The notes beneath the pieces are model-generated. The model was not told the DNA's origin. It searched no databases and saw nothing but the letters and a program-made list of their open reading frames with translations. The position numbers and the translations under genes were made by a program. DNA of 34,602 nucleotides from Candidatus Tayloriibacteriota bacterium (GTDB taxonomy: Bacteria; Patescibacteriota; Minisyncoccia; Phycocordibacterales; PALSA-1337): contig CAIMDI010000014.1 of assembly GCA_903839695.1 (NCBI GenBank), positions 1 to 34,602 on the forward strand. The letters are read 5' to 3'. Below, one piece after another: positions 12,084 through 21,233 of this stretch. Positions within the stretch are counted from its first letter, which is position 1; each line of letters opens with the position of its first letter.

Positions 12084-15000
12084 TTATCTTCCAATAAATG
12101 CTCTTGTTTTCGGACCAAAATACCCTATCGCTGGTGAAATATTTTTTGCTTTTTGGAATTTAATCAATGCTGCTTTTGTAGCTTTTCCGAAGATATTTGT
12201 TTCTTTTCCTATTGAACCTGGACCTGAGATTGAAACAGTGTATCCATTTTTATTTAAAAATTGCTGTAATAATCTAACCTCTTCACTAATAACGCCAAAT
12301 TGTAAATCTTTTGATTTCGTAAGTAGATTTGTAATATTTAATACCTCTGTTTGTATTACTTTAACCTTTTCGAAAATATTAGGATATTGTTTAATCAATT
12401 CATCTGCACTTTTTTGATTACCCATATTCTGTAAATTATAAACTCTACTTTGAACTGAACTGCCACTTGAAGAACTTCTATTTACAACTACTGGTGTAGA
12501 TTCAACGACTGTGGGTACGATAACCTCTGCAATGAATGCTGGATAATTATTTGTTATTTTATACCAAATAGGATCAGTGAAATTCCAATGATCAACGAAT
12601 GGCGCTTTTGTATTTACATCTAAACCTTTAAAATAATTTATACTTGTTGCTAATGTGGGTTGACTTGATCCATCTCTAGAATCACCAACTCCTACAGTTT
12701 GTGTGGTATTAAACCAATAATTATTTCCAGGAATACTATCTCCATTTCCTGTTTTATAATTATACTCTGTACCGTAACCGATAAAACCTCCGATATAAAT
12801 TGGTGTATTAGTACCCGCTGATACATTTCCAGTACTAAATGAATTACTTACACCACAAGTGCCACAATTGCTGTCTGTACCAATAAATCCACCAAGATTA
12901 TCATATCCAGAAACATTTCCAGTAGAATATGAATTTTCTACTTTTCCTGAATTAAATCCTATAAAGCCTCCGACATTAGTGCCGTCATTGATAGCATTTG
13001 CATTTCCTATTGAATATGAATTTTTTATTATTACATTTTGATGATTCACATTACCAACAAATCCTCCGATGTTTTGATATCCTGTAACATTTCCGGTTGA
13101 ATAAGAATTTTCTATTAATCCAACATCATAAATTCTTCCCACTAAACCACCGGTGTCACTTCCTGTAGATTCAACATCCCCAGTAGCATAAGATCCTGTA
13201 ATTGTTTTTTCATTATAACCCACCAAACCACCTATCAAATTTACTCCGATTGTCTTTGCAGTAGAATGTGAATTTATTATTGTGCTACTTTCAAATAATG
13301 TGCCAAAAATCATGCGTGTATTCCATCTTCTTAAATATTCAAGGTTTTTCGAAGTCAATGGATATTTTTCTGCTACTGAATATGGATATTTGGTCATACC
13401 CCTAAAAGGCAAAGGTTCAACAGTGCGTCCTATGGCACCCAACTTAGCGTGCTTAAACATATCATAATTATATAATACAAAATCTCTTTCCATTCCTTCT
13501 GCCGGTGGTACATATTGGAATTCAGCACTAATTTGATCACCATGATGCATTATTACAAACTGATCATCGGTACTTTGTAATAATTCTGATACATCACCAT
13601 ATTTCGTGAAATTACCAATTTGTGAAGCATAACTTTCTTTTGACGTAGATGATACCTTACTATAATCATGATTAAGGAAAAATTCATTATTTATAGAAGT
13701 ATATCCAAAGAAATGTAAATCAGCACTTGTAGGATGATACGTATTTACTGTGTATGTCTGTTGTTCGGTTGTATCTATTGCAAAATAATTCATTCTTGTT
13801 CTTGAATATCCAACACGAACCTCATAATTATTTGTTAAGAATTTATTTGTTAAATCAATAACTTGAGTTCTTGGAGATCCACCCATTGCAGATAATTCTG
13901 AACCACTATAAGCATTAACCCAATTCCCTTGTGTATTTTTTACTTGAACATAATGAAGATTTTTTGCATATCCATCTTCCGCACCATTTGTTATTAGCAA
14001 AATACGATTTGCTGCAGATAAATCTCCAAAATTTAATGTCCAATATGTATCGTTCATATCCCCCTTCTCACTCCATTTATTATCTAGATTATTTAATGAT
14101 GAAAGACAATTATTTCCAAATCTATCCGTACATGAAATTAATGGATTTGTAGGATTATCTTTTATTGTATAGAATTCATTGCTTTTATTTTTTTGTAATG
14201 ATGTTGCAATCTTATAACCAGGAGCATGATCAAATGTCTTCAATGCTAATTCATCATAATAAACTATTTCATTGTATTCCTGAGAAACATTTACTGAGTA
14301 CTTTCCATTTTTAGGCAATAATCTTGTGCCTTCTATTGGCAAATTATCATCTCCAGTTACGTTTCTAGAAAGACTGCGTCCAACATCTCCTATAAAATCA
14401 TATTTACTACCATTCCATGTATAAACCAAAGGACTTGATTGAAAATTACCACCAGCCACATGTCTTCCTACCAAACCTCCGACTTCTTCGTAACCATTGA
14501 CTGCTCCAGTACTATAAGAATTGGTAACTGTTCCAGCTAGCCCCCCTGCCAATGCTCCAACATAATAATTTCCAGTAATATTTACATTCGTTAAACCGAG
14601 ATTTGAAACAGATCCCCCTTCATTTATTACACCAAATAATCCTACATAATTATTATTAGGAAGATTTATATAAAGACCAGATATAGTATGATTTCCACCA
14701 TCAAAACTTCCAATGAATTGATTTGTTGAATCACCTATTGGTGAAAATCCATAATAACCATCACCAAAAGGCTGTTGAGAATTCCAAGTTGATGTCTCAG
14801 AACAATCTAAATCTTTTGTTAATGTATAACTTGAATATTTATCATTATTTATATTCTGTAATTCGGAACAAGATGTAATATTATAATTAGAAGAAGCTGG
14901 AAAAGTATATAAAAAGATATCTGATGTAACTCCTTCTCCTGCGCTATTGTATGCTATTACTTTAAATTCAAAAGTATGATTTGGTAAAAAACTATTTGAA

Positions 15001-16694
15001 AAAGCATATGTAGTAGTAGGACTGCCAATAGTAAATGTTGTCCAAGAACTACTTACAGACGGCTCTCTGTATAAAATTTTATAATCAAAAATATAACCGC
15101 CATCATCTACAGGAGGTGTCCAACCAAATACAAAATTATCATAAGTACCACTTACATGTCTCAGATTTGTGGGTGCTTCTGGTATAGTAGCATTAATATA
15201 ATTTACAGTAATTGAATCGACGGCTGGAGAAACGCCATCAGTTTGCGATAGTATGGTTTTAAATTGAACATATTCCTTTGCAATTAATCCAGCAGTATTT
15301 AAATCTGAAGTCAACTTTGTAAATGTTCCATCACTTGTTGTGCTTCCGATATTTATAAATGGCTCTGATTCTATATCCCAATAATTAGAACTCGTCCTCA
15401 TATAAATATCTACCAATCTATTAGAATTTAAACCTGAAATATCAATACTTACCGCCTCACTTCCGCCAGTACTGTCACCCCATTTACCTATAATTCCATA
15501 ATCTAATTTGCTGGATATCCATACCCCGTCTTGGTATACCGGAATTGTCGCGACCTCTTCAGTTCCAACACTAACACTTGGTAAAGGAAGTGCTGTAGAA
15601 AATACATCATTTATAGACATATTTTTTATTAGATGTGTATTTGTCTGACCTGCATTTCTTGAACCAAATCCATAATATTGACCACTCGTATTCCTAACAA
15701 TATCAGTATAGTCCATCATCTTTACTCCATCATAATAGACTTCAAATCTAGTATTTGTTTTTTTTATTCTTGCAGTATGATATCCACTATAACTCATTCC
15801 TGTCTTTGAAATAGCCTTGAGCAAATTACCATTATAATTTAATTGTATTTGACCTTGTGGACTACCGTTATATTCATCAAAATTTATACTATAACCTCCG
15901 TTTACAGCATCTTCACCTTGTGGGGTCGCGCTATTGTTGTATGCAAAAAAGTAAGTGGCATCTGCACCTATATTATTACAACATCCTCCACTTGCAGAAA
16001 AGTCAAAAGATACATCAAAATTTGTTCCCAACACTAAATCCGCAGGACCATAGGAAAGTTGTCCGTGACCACCAATATCTGCTGTATTTAACTTTACTAC
16101 TCCTCCTCCATTATCAACAGCTGTTCCATGAAGATGATTTGAATCTATAATCAAACTTATAGTTCCAGTAGCAATTGTTGCAGCAATAGAAGTTTGAGTA
16201 GAAATAGATCCATAATATAAATAAATAATCTTTGATGAAGACTTTGGTATAAATGGAACTTTCACAGATACTATCGTATTTGCAGTATTACACAAAGCAA
16301 TATCCATCTCTCGTAAATCAGAAATTTTATTTGAATCACGCATACGTATATCACCACAATCTGATTGTATCTTACCTCCAGTTATCAATGTGGCAGTATT
16401 TAATTCAAAAGAAACAATATTACTATACAGGTCATTGGAATTACCTGTATTGTTTATCGTGATCGGCAATAAATATTGATCGCCAACAGGTATAGTTGTG
16501 GTACTCAATTTTATAGAACCAGAATTTCCTGTGCCGACTATAGTCACGTTTGTAACTTCACTGCTAGCCGAAAAATCAGAAACTGAGGTAATGACTGATG
16601 TTATTGCAAAAACTTTTTGAATTTGAAAGAGAAAAGAAAAAACGAATATTATTAATAGGAAGAAAAAATATTTGTCACGAAACAAAACTTTCAT
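12084..16694 (-). CDS. Giant multidomain surface protein (DUF2341, LamG-like, FN3, GLUG, PG-binding)
   Basis: The product is 1536 aa from ATG 16694; the frame stays open to GTG 16730 but AT-rich promoter-like sequence lies there. A signal peptide (about residues 1-30) is followed by a DUF2341-like region (about 50-170), a lectin/LamG-like beta-sandwich (about 180-360), one FN3 domain (about 505-600), GLUG repeats (about 610-760 and 1130-1370, recognisable as GG-F/L-V/I-G ... SYSTG-x-V), and a C-terminal peptidoglycan-binding domain (about 1465-1536, EVRLLQQFLNKNGY ... FGPKTRAFIG). Between the two GLUG blocks sits an unrelated about 380-aa module. It is probably an adhesin held at the wall by its C-terminus. 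It heads a two-gene unit with the propeller-like protein. Confidence 0.85.
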   Translation of the reverse strand: MKVLFRDKYFFFLLIIFVFSFLFQIQKVFAITSVITSVSDFSASSEVTNVTIVGTGNSGSIKLSTTTIPVGDQYLLPITINNTGNSNDLYSNIVSFELNTATLITGGKIQSDCGDIRMRDSNKISDLREMDIALCNTANTIVSVKVPFIPKSSSKIIYLYYGSISTQTSIAATIATGTISLIIDSNHLHGTAVDNGGGVVKLNTADIGGHGQLSYGPADLVLGTNFDVSFDFSASGGCCNNIGADATYFFAYNNSATPQGEDAVNGGYSINFDEYNGSPQGQIQLNYNGNLLKAISKTGMSYSGYHTARIKKTNTRFEVYYDGVKMMDYTDIVRNTSGQYYGFGSRNAGQTNTHLIKNMSINDVFSTALPLPSVSVGTEEVATIPVYQDGVWISSKLDYGIIGKWGDSTGGSEAVSIDISGLNSNRLVDIYMRTSSNYWDIESEPFINIGSTTSDGTFTKLTSDLNTAGLIAKEYVQFKTILSQTDGVSPAVDSITVNYINATIPEAPTNLRHVSGTYDNFVFGWTPPVDDGGYIFDYKILYREPSVSSSWTTFTIGSPTTTYAFSNSFLPNHTFEFKVIAYNSAGEGVTSDIFLYTFPASSNYNITSCSELQNINNDKYSSYTLTKDLDCSETSTWNSQQPFGDGYYGFSPIGDSTNQFIGSFDGGNHTISGLYINLPNNNYVGLFGVINEGGSVSNLGLTNVNITGNYYVGALAGGLAGTVTNSYSTGAVNGYEEVGGLVGRHVAGGNFQSSPLVYTWNGSKYDFIGDVGRSLSRNVTGDDNLPIEGTRLLPKNGKYSVNVSQEYNEIVYYDELALKTFDHAPGYKIATSLQKNKSNEFYTIKDNPTNPLISCTDRFGNNCLSSLNNLDNKWSEKGDMNDTYWTLNFGDLSAANRILLITNGAEDGYAKNLHYVQVKNTQGNWVNAYSGSELSAMGGSPRTQVIDLTNKFLTNNYEVRVGYSRTRMNYFAIDTTEQQTYTVNTYHPTSADLHFFGYTSINNEFFLNHDYSKVSSTSKESYASQIGNFTKYGDVSELLQSTDDQFVIMHHGDQISAEFQYVPPAEGMERDFVLYNYDMFKHAKLGAIGRTVEPLPFRGMTKYPYSVAEKYPLTSKNLEYLRRWNTRMIFGTLFESSTIINSHSTAKTIGVNLIGGLVGYNEKTITGSYATGDVESTGSDTGGLVGRIYDVGLIENSYSTGNVTGYQNIGGFVGNVNHQNVIIKNSYSIGNANAINDGTNVGGFIGFNSGKVENSYSTGNVSGYDNLGGFIGTDSNCGTCGVSNSFSTGNVSAGTNTPIYIGGFIGYGTEYNYKTGNGDSIPGNNYWFNTTQTVGVGDSRDGSSQPTLATSINYFKGLDVNTKAPFVDHWNFTDPIWYKITNNYPAFIAEVIVPTVVESTPVVVNRSSSSGSSVQSRVYNLQNMGNQKSADELIKQYPNIFEKVKVIQTEVLNITNLLTKSKDLQFGVISEEVRLLQQFLNKNGYTVSISGPGSIGKETNIFGKATKAALIKFQKAKNISPAIGYFGPKTRAFIGR

Positions 16695-16796
16695 GCATAT
16701 ATTATAATTTATAAAAGTAATTATATCCACTGGATTTTATGTGAGTTGTCAACAGTTTTAAAATTAAATTTAAAAGACATAAAACCTAGTTTAAGC

Positions 16797-16825: not shown

Positions 16826-17773
16826 ATGAAAAACTATCGCATAAATTCTTTTATCATCTTTTTTATTATCATACTTATACTAAGTAGTGGATATTATAAG
16901 TACAAAACAGAAATTAATTACTCAATTAATAATTTAGTAAATAGAATACAACCATGCCAAAGACCAATTACCTATTCCATAAACGCCTTAGATGAACGTT
17001 TTCATTTATCAAAAGAAGAATTAATAATACAAACCGAGAAAGCTCAAAAGATTTGGGGGTCAACACTAAATAAAGATCTTTTCAAATACAGTGAAAATGG
17101 AGAAATTAAAATAAATTTAATTTATGACTATAGACAAAAAGCAACTGATGAATTGAGTAAAATTGGCGTAGTTATAGATGGTGGTAAAACCAATTTAAAT
17201 ACATTAAAAGCAAAACATGATTCATATTTGGAATCATACAATAAAGAAATTGCCAAAATTAATCAGATGATTGCAAAATATGATTCAAATAAGGCTATTT
17301 ATGATAATGATTTAAGGAATTGGAACAATGGAACAAGACAATCAAATAGCGAATTCAATTCTATAGAGCAAAAAAGGTTAAATTTAAATAATGAAATTGC
17401 CTTAATAAACAAAGAAAAGGTTATTTCTAACGAATTAGTTAAAATGATTAATTCAAATGTGACATCTATAAATAAAGTAGTTAATAATTTTAACTTAAAT
17501 GTAAAAAATTATAATTCCATAGGATCATCAACTGGAAAAATATTTGATGAAGGAGAATATACAAGAGAATCTAGTGATATAAATATTAATATATATCAAT
17601 TTAAAAATTCAAATCAACTTTTACGAGTATTAGCCCACGAATTTGGCCATGCATTGGGAATTGAACACCAAGAAAGTCCAGAATCAATAATGTATTATCT
17701 AAATGAAAATGGAAATGATAAATTAACAATAGAAGATAAAGACGCATTAAAAAAGGCCTGCAAAATAAATTAA
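16826..17773 (+). CDS. Membrane-anchored metzincin (matrixin-like) metalloprotease
   Basis: The 315-aa protein has an N-terminal transmembrane helix (about residues 7-22), a proenzyme-like strand region (PITYSINALDERFHLS, 47-62, and AQKIWG), a long charged coiled-coil segment (about 120-235), then HEFGHALGIEH at 271-281 with the three zinc histidines (H271, H275, H281) and catalytic E272, and the metzincin Met-turn SIMY (M289). The protease domain is thus split by the coiled coil, which is unusual for matrixins. It should act outside the membrane. The ATG has no SD site but a TATAAT box 24 bases upstream. Its stop codon overlaps the convergent stop of the carboxypeptidase gene by three bases. 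Confidence 0.85.
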   Translation: MKNYRINSFIIFFIIILILSSGYYKYKTEINYSINNLVNRIQPCQRPITYSINALDERFHLSKEELIIQTEKAQKIWGSTLNKDLFKYSENGEIKINLIYDYRQKATDELSKIGVVIDGGKTNLNTLKAKHDSYLESYNKEIAKINQMIAKYDSNKAIYDNDLRNWNNGTRQSNSEFNSIEQKRLNLNNEIALINKEKVISNELVKMINSNVTSINKVVNNFNLNVKNYNSIGSSTGKIFDEGEYTRESSDININIYQFKNSNQLLRVLAHEFGHALGIEHQESPESIMYYLNENGNDKLTIEDKDALKKACKIN

Positions 17774-18732
17774 TTCATAACCTTAATAAGCACCTTTTCT
17801 GTATCCATTTCCCTTTCACCTATACTGGATCTAAGTAAAATAACAGCTACTGGACGCGTCGATGTTCCCATTTCTACATTAAAAAGAGAAATCATACTCT
17901 CTTTTGCTTCTTTAGTTCTTCCTGTTTTTCCGCCAATAAAGGGTTCATAGACAACAAAAGGATTGATAGAAATGTATTTGTGAAATCCATGATCTGTAGT
18001 TGTAGCTATAGCGAAATCTTTTTGTTTAGTTATTTCTAGAATTTTTTTCTCATTATCAAAATAATATTTTGATAATATAAATAGATCTCGTATATTTGAT
18101 ACATTGCCAGAATTTAAACCAGAGGCGTCTTTGAAAGATGTATGCTTCATACCTATTTCCAAAGCAATAGAATTCATAAAGCCTATAAATTTATCATAAC
18201 CGTATGATTGGGCTATGGCCTCAGCTGCGTCATTACTTGATTCCAACAACATAGGATATAACAATTCTTCTACTGTATATACTTCACCTTTTACAAGATT
18301 TCCTGCTTCCCCATAAGCTTCTAACATGGGTTGTGTAATAGTTACCTTACTTTTTAAATCCATTATATTAGTAGCTACAATAGCTGTAAAAAACTTACTA
18401 AGTGATGCTATTGGAAAAACTTTTTCTGAATTATATTCTAAATAAATTTTTCCACTTATAAGATCACCTACCATATAAGCTTCGGCGGTTATTGCTTCTA
18501 AATCTTTTTTCTCTTTGATTTTTATATCTACCTTTACTTGTTCTTTAACTTTTGTAGGTTCGATAATATCTTCGTCTATTATTATCGGTGGTTCCACATT
18601 TTTATTTTGTGTTAATTCATTAGTTTTAATTTCATTAGTACCAGGCTCAATAACTTTAGTAGAATATATTTTTGCAAAATATACATAGCTAATTAAAATA
18701 CAAGAAATTAATAGTAGGATATACTTTTTCAT
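17770..18732 (-). CDS. D-alanyl-D-alanine carboxypeptidase (peptidase S11, DacA/DacF type)
   Basis: The enzyme trims terminal D-alanine from peptidoglycan peptides outside the cell membrane. All three penicillin-binding signatures are present: SLSK (S110-K113, nucleophile and base), SSN (165-167) and KTG (269-271). An N-terminal hydrophobic helix (about 3-20) anchors it, followed by a low-complexity E/K/I-rich linker (about 28-78). At 320 aa it holds the catalytic domain but has little room for the C-terminal domain found in PBP5. It ends convergently against the metzincin gene with overlapping stops and lies just upstream-side of the pilus cluster on the same strand. Confident family call. 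Confidence 0.92.
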   Translation of the reverse strand: MKKYILLLISCILISYVYFAKIYSTKVIEPGTNEIKTNELTQNKNVEPPIIIDEDIIEPTKVKEQVKVDIKIKEKKDLEAITAEAYMVGDLISGKIYLEYNSEKVFPIASLSKFFTAIVATNIMDLKSKVTITQPMLEAYGEAGNLVKGEVYTVEELLYPMLLESSNDAAEAIAQSYGYDKFIGFMNSIALEIGMKHTSFKDASGLNSGNVSNIRDLFILSKYYFDNEKKILEITKQKDFAIATTTDHGFHKYISINPFVVYEPFIGGKTGRTKEAKESMISLFNVEMGTSTRPVAVILLRSSIGEREMDTEKVLIKVMN

Positions 18733-18787: not shown

Positions 18788-19291
18788 TTATCTAGTTACA
18801 GATATTGACTCCGTTATTTCTCCTATAGAAGAAACTGTTATGCGACCGTTAGCATCCTGAAAAATCTTGTATTCGGTATTATATGCACCATTTTCAATAT
18901 ATCCAGCACCAGGTTTTGAAGGATCAAAAGGTAATGATGAAATGTAATTAGGCACAAGACAATCAGCGATATCAAACTTGGGAGTTATAGAAAAATCATT
19001 GGTCATAAGTGTAGATGTTCCAGGGATTTGTTGTGTTGTGGTTCCACAATAAAACGTGCCCCTATGTTCTGCAATATCTTGACCAACAGCATTTAAAATA
19101 GCTGTTACATTACTAACTCTTTGAGAATCTCTAGCCAATTTGAATTGTCTTGCAGGATTTATAGCAACAAGAACAACCGCTGCCAATACCGCTATAATAC
19201 CTATAACAATCAAAATTTCTATGAGTGTAAAACCCCTACTTTTATCTTTTCTATTCAAAACCAAATTCCCTGTTTTATTTGTTTTTATCAT
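18788..19291 (-). CDS. Type IV pilin-like protein (probable major pilin)
   Basis: The 167-aa protein carries a basic 20-residue leader ending RG, then FTLIEILIVIGIIAVLAAV, the class III prepilin signature. Cleavage is expected between G20 and F21, and E25 is the Glu5 that orders pilin subunits. The globular part has a pair of cysteines (about C82 and C111) that could form a disulfide and a beta-rich C-terminus. It is the last gene of the minus-strand pilus cluster and has its own upstream 11-bp repeat array at 19331, so it can be transcribed separately, as expected for the most abundant subunit. No prepilin peptidase gene is in the window. Confidence 0.9.
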   Translation of the reverse strand: MIKTNKTGNLVLNRKDKSRGFTLIEILIVIGIIAVLAAVVLVAINPARQFKLARDSQRVSNVTAILNAVGQDIAEHRGTFYCGTTTQQIPGTSTLMTNDFSITPKFDIADCLVPNYISSLPFDPSKPGAGYIENGAYNTEYKIFQDANGRITVSSIGEITESISVTR

Positions 19292-19386: not shown

Positions 19387-19767
19387 TCATTCTATAGATA
19401 ATATTTCAAGATGGTCATCAAATAACCTAGCTTTAGCCTTACGATAAACTACAATATTTTTATATTTTCCGTAAACTGAAATTATTTTTATACCATTTTC
19501 ATCAATTGCAGAAATTATTGAGCAATTTAAGTCTTTATAATTGATTTCTTTAAAACTATTAAAAAAATAATCATGCGCAAAAGCTAATAATGCTTGATCA
19601 ATACATGAATATGCTGAATAAAAAGCCATCAGTCTGTATTCCTTTCTTTGTACTTGATCAAAAAAATGTCCATATTCTATTGCCTGCATAAAAGAAAAAG
19701 CCAAAATCAAAGAGGAAATTGAAATTACGAGTATAAATGCGGCAAATCCTTTTTGTTTATTTTTCAT
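19387..19767 (-). CDS. Minor pilin-like protein lacking Glu5 (PilX/GspK-like)
   Basis: The 126-aa product begins KQKGFAAFILVISISSLILAF, a prepilin-like signal with Gly-Phe (G7, F8) followed by a hydrophobic helix, but position 5 of the mature chain is not glutamate. Absence of Glu5 is a property of GspK and some PilX-type tip pseudopilins. The rest has a paired cysteine (about C56 and C82) and beta-like segments. Its start overlaps the end of the 56-aa pilin-like gene by 11 bases, suggesting translational coupling in one transcript. Role at the pilus tip is inference from context. Confidence 0.75.
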   Translation of the reverse strand: MKNKQKGFAAFILVISISSLILAFSFMQAIEYGHFFDQVQRKEYRLMAFYSAYSCIDQALLAFAHDYFFNSFKEINYKDLNCSIISAIDENGIKIISVYGKYKNIVVYRKAKARLFDDHLEILSIE

Positions 19768-19927
19768 GAAAGTTTTTAATTAATAATAAATAATCACTAT
19801 CTTTAATTTCTGATCTTGTTAAACCAAAATGTAGATATGAAAATAATGATGAAAAAATTCCCAGCATTATAAAAGAAAGTAAAGTTACATATAACAGTGT
19901 CTCGATTAATGTGAAACCTTTATTCAT
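19757..19927 (-). CDS. 56-aa pilin-like protein (short pseudopilin)
   Basis: A short gene begins MNKGFTLIET, an exact prepilin cleavage signature after a three-residue leader plus glycine, with Glu5, followed by a hydrophobic helix to about residue 30 and a charged tail ending FHEK. It encodes essentially only the pilin N-terminal helix and no globular head. It starts one base after the stop of the propeller-pilin gene and its end overlaps the start of the next pilin gene by 11 bases, so the spacing is operon-like. It may be a minimal pseudopilin or the remnant of a PilW/PilV-type gene; nothing in the downstream frame restores a longer protein. Confidence 0.75.
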   Translation of the reverse strand: MNKGFTLIETLLYVTLLSFIMLGIFSSLFSYLHFGLTRSEIKDSDYLLLIKNFHEK

Positions 19928-19928
19928 A

Positions 19929-21233
19929 TTATTGATTTAATTTAATTATAGAAAATCCTTTTTCATCTCCATTGGCCAAAAATAGATTTGATGAATCACA
20001 TGAAATAACTACTGGCTTTAAACCAAGAGATTTCTCATATAATTTTAAAGAAAAATCTGAATTCCAAACCTGAAATTCAGCTGATGGTGTATGGGATATT
20101 AGGAAATTATATGGTGGTCTCATTAAAAAACCGTAAACACCACCTGGTATATCCTGAGAATATTTGATTTTATAATCTGAGCTTGTAGAAAATACGAAAG
20201 CCTCATGATTTAAAATTCTGTTTATTCCCCCAACTGTTCTACCTAAAGCTAATACATTTTCGAAATACGCAATCACTTTCCCTTGTTGCACTTGCCAGCC
20301 ATCAGCAGTAAAAGTATGTGTTAAGAAAATATTATTTTTATTATTAATATCAATTATTCTCATTTGATTTTCATCAGAAGTAGCGAGAAAAGCAAAATTT
20401 TCATATACATAAATATCATTAATTAATGTATTAGTTTCAAAACTCGAAATCAGAATTGGATTTAGGGGGTTTGAAACATCAATAATATTGAACTCCGCAC
20501 CATCCCATTTATTTGTCCCGAGATAAACATAACCATTACGATAAAAAATAGAATTTGCTCTAGGTGGAGTAGAAGATGCATTTGGTAATGGTAATTTTAA
20601 CTGAGAAACAATATGAGGAAAATTCCTATCATGAATATCTATGATTTGTAATTGTGATAAAGAACTCGTATTGGCTACATATGCGTATGGCCCAGCGATA
20701 GCGAGCGATGCCAATCCTGGACCAGTATTTAATGAAGAAATTATATAAGGATTTAGAAAATCCTCTGCATTAATTATGAAGAAGTCAGCTTGGGATTGAG
20801 TAGGCGAATCTGAAGTCAAATATATAATAGAATTTTTTGAATTAATTCCAGTACTTATATTTCCTGAGCCAAGATAAATACCATTGGGAAAATACTGCAA
20901 ACTTGATATTTCAAAATCAATATTTGTTGAACAAGAGGAATCACCCCAACCTTTTTGAAAATCAGACTTAACAATTTCAAATGGACTGACTTTAATAATT
21001 GTGGAATTATTACCATAAAAAAGTTTAGTGGAACTTGAAAATAATATAGCACTATCCATATCATGCACAGATGTATTTAGCATATCCAATTCTTTTAATG
21101 ACCATGTATTAATACCGTACATAGAAGAATTCAAGGAAAAAATTGAAATAGTAAAAAGTACAAATAAAGATATTGATATCATTATTTCAACAGTTAAAAA
21201 ACCATTATTTTGTAAGGTGATTGGTAATTTCAT
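19929..21233 (-). CDS. Pilin-beta-propeller fusion (pseudopilin with LVIVD-type repeats)
   Basis: The 434-aa protein starts with a prepilin signal, NNGFLTVEIMISISLFVLF: cleavage after G11, mature Phe1 at F12 and Glu5 at E16. From about residue 150 on it has repeats of the LVIVD type, hxIID followed by P-x-I-h-S, at 153-170, 196-212, 249-265 and 292-310, each about 45-50 residues apart, which build a beta-propeller. Pilin N-termini fused to propellers are unusual; PilY1 supplies a propeller at the pilus tip as a separate protein. Predicted role: a large minor pilin at the tip, acting in adhesion. Its start overlaps the pilC-like gene's end by 29 bases. Confidence 0.8.
   Translation of the reverse strand: MKLPITLQNNGFLTVEIMISISLFVLFTISIFSLNSSMYGINTWSLKELDMLNTSVHDMDSAILFSSSTKLFYGNNSTIIKVSPFEIVKSDFQKGWGDSSCSTNIDFEISSLQYFPNGIYLGSGNISTGINSKNSIIYLTSDSPTQSQADFFIINAEDFLNPYIISSLNTGPGLASLAIAGPYAYVANTSSLSQLQIIDIHDRNFPHIVSQLKLPLPNASSTPPRANSIFYRNGYVYLGTNKWDGAEFNIIDVSNPLNPILISSFETNTLINDIYVYENFAFLATSDENQMRIIDINNKNNIFLTHTFTADGWQVQQGKVIAYFENVLALGRTVGGINRILNHEAFVFSTSSDYKIKYSQDIPGGVYGFLMRPPYNFLISHTPSAEFQVWNSDFSLKLYEKSLGLKPVVISCDSSNLFLANGDEKGFSIIKLNQ

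Follow-up and report, generated by a model that had tools for sequence, protein, structure and literature searches.

The propeller pilin gene and its operon

The window, a stretch of 34,602 nucleotides from a Candidatus Tayloriibacteriota bacterium, one of the ultrasmall Patescibacteria (contig CAIMDI010000014.1), carries a type IV pilus operon on its minus strand (Table 1). The gene at 19929-21233 of this operon, with its ATG at 21233 and its stop codon ending at 19929, encodes one protein of 434 aa (434 codons), which joins an independent non-pilin domain to a pilin module in a single chain and is thus a modular pilin. Its N-terminus is a class III signal peptide: the leader MKLPITLQNNG ends in glycine and is followed by F1 L2 T3 V4 E5 and a hydrophobic helix, giving the motif NNG/FLTVE with Glu at +5. 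The preliminary description had read a complete prepilin signal with Glu5 here, and that reading is upheld. It had also counted at least four propeller repeats, and four IID/IIN-type blades can indeed be read in the protein (FFIINAEDFLNPYI, LQIIDIHDRNFPHI, FNIIDVSNPLNPIL and MRIIDINNKNNIFL). The match to the LVIVD family (PF08309) has an E-value of 4.7e-13 and scores 48.7 bits against a gathering cut-off of 20.2, and the repeats therefore lie far beyond chance. A Pfam scan of the protein yields LVIVD alone, with no match to the PilY1 propeller family PF05567; the choice_anch_B model TIGR04312 scores 31.8 bits, below its curated cut-off of 100. The propeller pilin is a single-copy protein in the 732-kb genome, where we found no second LVIVD protein, and a gene for the prepilin peptidase PilD (Peptidase_A24) is present on contig C24. 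The 3′ end of pilC overlaps the propeller pilin gene by 29 bases, and because of this overlap the two are probably translated together.

Table 1. Positions of the propeller pilin, its parts and the neighbouring genes in the window.
Feature	Positions	Strand	Basis
S11 D,D-carboxypeptidase, downstream of pilins in several relatives	17770..18732	-	Pfam, neighbourhoods
Probable major pilin, 167 aa, GFTLIEILIVIGIIAV	18788..19291	-	Profile matches, neighbourhoods
PilX/GspK-like minor pilin, 126 aa, without Glu5, two invariant Cys	19387..19767	-	Sequence
Helix-only prepilin, 56 aa, J/ComGF position	19757..19927	-	Sequence, relatives
LVIVD-propeller minor pilin, 434 aa, whole gene with stop	19929..21233	-	Sequence, Pfam, relatives, AlphaFold2
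Seven-bladed LVIVD β-propeller, residues 106-434	19932..20918	-	Pfam, AlphaFold2, fold alignment
Cys412, invariant in 30 relatives, first strand of blade 7	19998..20000	-	Alignment
Cys101, invariant in 30 relatives; possible disulfide partner of Cys412	20931..20933	-	Alignment
Pilin module, residues 12-100: α1 helix to about residue 65, Glu at mature position 5, small β-sheet	20934..21200	-	Models
Prepilin leader, residues 1-11, last residue Gly(-1); predicted PilD cut before F12	21201..21233	-	Sequence; G11 invariant in 30 relatives
PilC/GspF platform protein, 353 aa	21205..22266	-	Profile matches, tree
PilB/GspE-type extension ATPase, compact, 376 aa	22281..23411	-	Profile matches, tree

The fusion of pilin and propeller, as first proposed from this locus, proves to be real. 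Matches to the propeller pilin were found in 39 of 60 relatives and in 33 of the 35 within the window's own family, although in three of the latter (G014, G019 and G021) the match is a weak one to another pilin, of GspK-like type, and in one (G011) it is a fragment at a contig end. In all 30 aligned relatives a prepilin-type signal continues into the propeller, inside a type IV pilus operon, and none is split into two genes; an assembly error or gene split as the source of the fusion is thus ruled out. The leader Gly is invariant in these relatives and Glu or Asp stands at +5 in 29 of the 30; Asp is the usual residue in genus g7, and a single relative has Asn. Close relatives that bear a name belong to Ca. 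Taylorbacteria and Ca. Nomurabacteria. Farther afield, even samples of the class (285 genomes) and of the phylum (379 genomes) gave sparse strong matches, at roughly 7% by an approximate count, and the prepilin signal was in register at 41 of 52 further, distant loci from these surveys.

Predicted fold and the class of the pilin module

A propeller had been expected from the repeats, and AlphaFold2, run with the 30 relatives, predicts one of seven blades (mean pLDDT 87.2, pTM 0.79, with pLDDT above 90 over most of the propeller). The model has a helix (residues 9-65), three short strands within residues 70-90 and 27 blade strands, which make up six four-stranded blades and a seventh that an N-terminal strand is able to close. 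Experimental structures of seven-bladed WD40 propellers superpose on the propeller region with Z of about 32 over about 280 residues at 2.0-2.4 Å; this likeness is one of common fold, not of common function. Conservation is higher in the loops on the da/bc face than in those on the opposite face of the propeller (JS 0.507 versus 0.396, permutation p=5e-5), and this contrast points to a ligand or partner common to the propeller pilin family. Residues of the conserved face lie around T170-G173, K242-E247 and R332-G336. Such strong conservation argues against a fast-evolving, species-specific receptor site, and the conserved face could instead dock to partner pilins. A disulfide between Cys101 and Cys412 is plausible from their conservation. 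Among 41 distant prepilin-bearing members both cysteines occur in 11, the first only in 8, the second only in 3 and neither in 19 (p=0.007 in a Fisher test that ignores the relatedness of the members); VKOR, which bears on this bond, is present.

The class of minor pilin to which the N-terminal module belongs was approached through profiles, fold and gene order. Propeller pilins match the NCBIfam models ComGE, GspI, XpsI or PilV, all weakly; the best I-class score for the propeller pilin is 22 bits against a curated cut-off of 49 (ComGE), and because these scores fall under the cut-offs we term the module I-like rather than filing it as a member of the I class. Using the modeled pilin module of one relative (L016, pLDDT 81), the second to fifth fold matches are I-class pseudopilins, namely 3ci0_I (GspI), 2ret_C and 5bw0_B (EpsI, XcpV) and 9a1f_R, with Z of 5.2-6.1 at 2.3-3.0 Å over 68-95 residues, where only 3ci0_I carries I in its chain name and the other chains were assigned by size. 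The first match is an unrelated autotransporter domain, and a Foldseek search with the module gave no match at E <0.001. This fold likeness in a model is suggestive of the I class. Elsewhere in the operons, the extra pilin of the more distant ones has GspH/ComGD or ComGE as its match, ComGF is the best match of the window's short pilin, and the PilX-like pilin lacks Glu5, as does GspK. The ComGE match was considered as proof of the slot but is weakened by the fact that the preceding H-like pilins match ComGE too. Taking fold likeness and gene order together, the I position (GspI/ComGE/PilV) of an H-I-J-K tip complex is our best guess for the propeller pilin.

A compact filament machine linked to the propeller pilin

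The gene order across 20 neighbourhoods is pilB, pilC, in more distant operons an extra pilin, then the propeller pilin, the short pilin and the PilX/GspK-like pilin; in many of them the major pilin and the S11 carboxypeptidase complete the order, a few of the 20 being incomplete or cut. In at least six relatives (L042, L043, L045, L046, L054 and L055) the carboxypeptidase gene comes after that of the major pilin, and this place beside the pilin operon may perhaps reflect local wall remodelling. The 56-aa helix-only prepilin, which has no globular head, has counterparts of 55-66 aa in several genera and of 120-161 aa in more distant operons.

The genome encodes three filament systems: the propeller operon, a system on C16 in which a 582-aa PilB adjoins tpiA- and pgk-like genes, and a system on C36 which holds the only PilT of the genome above cut-off. 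The propeller operon itself has no retraction ATPase. PilB is short in propeller operons (344-436 aa) and mostly 536-626 aa elsewhere; the 352-aa PilB-type proteins found elsewhere stand beside a full PilB, as PilT does. In the PilC tree all 29 of the 29 propeller-operon proteins fall in one clade (support 0.984), of which the sole other member comes from a genome (G015) in which the contig breaks off directly behind pilC. Agreement is poorer in the PilB tree, with four misplacements and a support of 0.78. Because the propeller-operon PilC proteins form one clade, the propeller pilin and its machine evidently travel together. In the genomes without a propeller pilin that were examined we found no other module in its slot; these lack the propeller PilC clade altogether, and therefore miss the whole machine and not merely the gene.

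Candidate roles of the propeller

We propose, with a probability of roughly 0.6, that this protein serves a compact type IV filament system as an I-like minor pilin, with a grafted seven-bladed LVIVD propeller as a built-in tip adhesin. The architecture, the predicted fold, the operon, the coupling to one PilC clade, the I-class similarity of the pilin module and the conserved propeller face come directly out of our analysis, and adhesion is favoured because pilin-grafted propellers and other modules act in adhesion where tested. Most likely, the propeller would be displayed at the tip as an adhesin that is PilY1-like in role, yet covalently part of the pilus. As a first step PilD would remove the 11-residue leader, and the short PilB and the PilC of the operon would load the α1 helix along with two partners, the helix-only J-type pilin and the K/PilX-type pilin. 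Homology to H-I-J-K complexes suggests that the loaded pilins may form a tip complex from which the filament starts; the major pilin would then polymerise below it and push the propeller outward, where its conserved face could bind a ligand on another cell or surface and do the job of a separate PilY1. The current view of H-I-J-K systems is that I sets off assembly of the complex and that K caps it (PMC9934059, PMC10191384); if this is valid here, the propeller would therefore be carried at the tip. The preliminary description had the propeller polymerised or capped as a minor pilin to give the pilus a built-in adhesin. The adhesin part of that proposal remains the best-supported function, and polymerisation into the shaft appears less likely than placement at the tip.

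The main rival to an adhesin is a propeller that serves mainly as a structural cap, replacing a missing H pilin and a missing J head, priming or stabilising the tip complex and docking with its conserved face to the K and J pilins. We regard this as unlikely. In its favour, most genera of the window's family, and G037 as well, have only a bare helix left as J, the window operon has no separate H-like pilin of the kind that more distant operons possess, and the conserved loops lie on one face of the propeller. However, the same propeller occurs in operons that have a full J pilin as well as an additional H-like pilin (L049, L050 and L057) and is therefore not simply a replacement; at 330 residues it is also large for a cap alone.

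Resemblances to other filament systems suggest further roles, both of which we consider improbable. The short PilB and PilC are like ComGA and ComGB in size and in sub-threshold profile matches, and the minor pilins weakly match ComGE and ComGF, as would befit a ComG-like DNA-uptake pilus whose propeller captures DNA or protects the tip. Against this, the propeller is acidic (pI about 4.9, with a median net charge of -12 in the family) and the operon has no PilT; known DNA-binding pilins use electropositive patches, which in S. sanguinis lie at the ComGD-ComGF interface (PMC12153270). Slightly more doubtful still is a type II secretion-like pseudopilus with a propeller that recruits a secreted substrate. 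PilB scores 446.6 bits with the GspE model and 399.3 with the PilB model, both below cut-off, the I-like module is nearest to type II secretion chains, and a large surface-type protein is encoded nearby (12084-16730, minus strand), but no dedicated substrate gene is consistently linked to the operon across the 20 neighbourhoods. This nearby protein has 1548 aa and combines GLUG repeats, fibronectin III and DUF2341 with a peptidoglycan-binding domain at its C-terminus.

The premise of the preliminary description that the tip propeller is a separate protein in known systems is out of date. TM7x (Nanosynbacter lyticus, Saccharibacteria) has a minor pilin, PilX2, that ends in a seven-bladed RCC1 propeller, and its deletion, published in 2025, lowers binding from about 10.6% to 4.6% of hosts (PMC12206443). 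The propeller pilin resembles PilX2 as a patescibacterial minor pilin with a C-terminal seven-bladed propeller, for which deletion has shown a host-binding role in the case of PilX2. The two differ in that PilX2 has RCC1 repeats, is named as a PilX (K-type), has no predicted PilD signal and belongs to a system with machinery and pilins at separate loci, whereas the propeller pilin has LVIVD repeats, a canonical PilD site and an I-like module, all in one operon. A 2021 survey of modular pilins included one with 12 copies of IPR013211 (PMC8179133), which is LVIVD (PMC10210494). This protein of Ca. Falkowbacteria likewise combines a pilin signal with LVIVD repeats in a patescibacterium, but is 860 aa long and is listed as a database architecture only (PMC8179133). 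In S. sanguinis, PilB (vWA) and PilC (lectin) also carry an adhesive domain grafted on a pilin and are thought to be displayed at the tip (PMC8179133, PMC9934059); the grafted folds are different and the I-type pilin there, PilA, is not modular. The PilY1/PilC tip adhesin places a propeller at the pilus tip with minor pilins and would share its role if the adhesin explanation holds, but PilY1 is a separate, non-pilin protein with its own propeller family, PF05567, and the propeller pilin has a pilin signal and no PF05567. A scan for PF05567 matched 0 of the 60 relatives, but the control genomes gave no match either, so that this zero carries no weight for an absence of PilY1. GspI, ComGE and PilV have a similar pilin module fold and likely the same slot in the tip complex, without a propeller.

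Modular pilins, LVIVD on a pilin (2021) and a seven-bladed propeller pilin with a host-binding phenotype (2025) are thus already known; an LVIVD propeller on an I-like minor pilin is not described in the papers searched, and among open-licence PMC papers we found none with both the words LVIVD and pilin. Our analysis adds a phylum-wide family with its conserved operon and its PilC clade, and further an I-like module, a conserved face on the propeller and a J partner that consists of a helix only. It is possible, though we hold it tentatively, that these operons represent a distinct and old class of type IV filament in Patescibacteria, apart from the PilT-linked pilus and the tpiA/pgk-linked system, in which the tip complex was rebuilt around a propeller-bearing I-like pilin and, in one family, a bare-helix J. 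Such a pilus would be dedicated to recognising a host or a surface, by way of a single ligand conserved between lineages. As to how Patescibacteria recognise their hosts and hold on to them, the tested pilus adhesins in the papers found come from Saccharibacteria only. A conserved single-copy propeller pilin in uncultured Paceibacteria is a concrete candidate, for which expression and ligand screening are possible without culture.

Other large prepilins occur among the relatives. In genus g9, LVIVD repeats stand on a GspK-like pilin of about 750 aa without Glu5, in a tpiA/pgk-linked system (L148:2207-4468, L153:2509-4767 and L158:2159-4399), apparently a second graft of this repeat. Together with the I-like pilins described here and PilX2 of TM7x, this suggests that propellers were grafted on pilins more than once. 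Beside pilC at L113:838-3492 lies the gene of a prepilin-like protein, 884 aa or longer, that has numerous LVIVD repeats and is possibly a double propeller. The C16 system of the window's own genome includes a 595-aa prepilin with a carboxypeptidase-regulatory/prealbumin-like domain (L131:7563-9350), and similar prepilins of 568-615 aa occupy the same place in several relatives.
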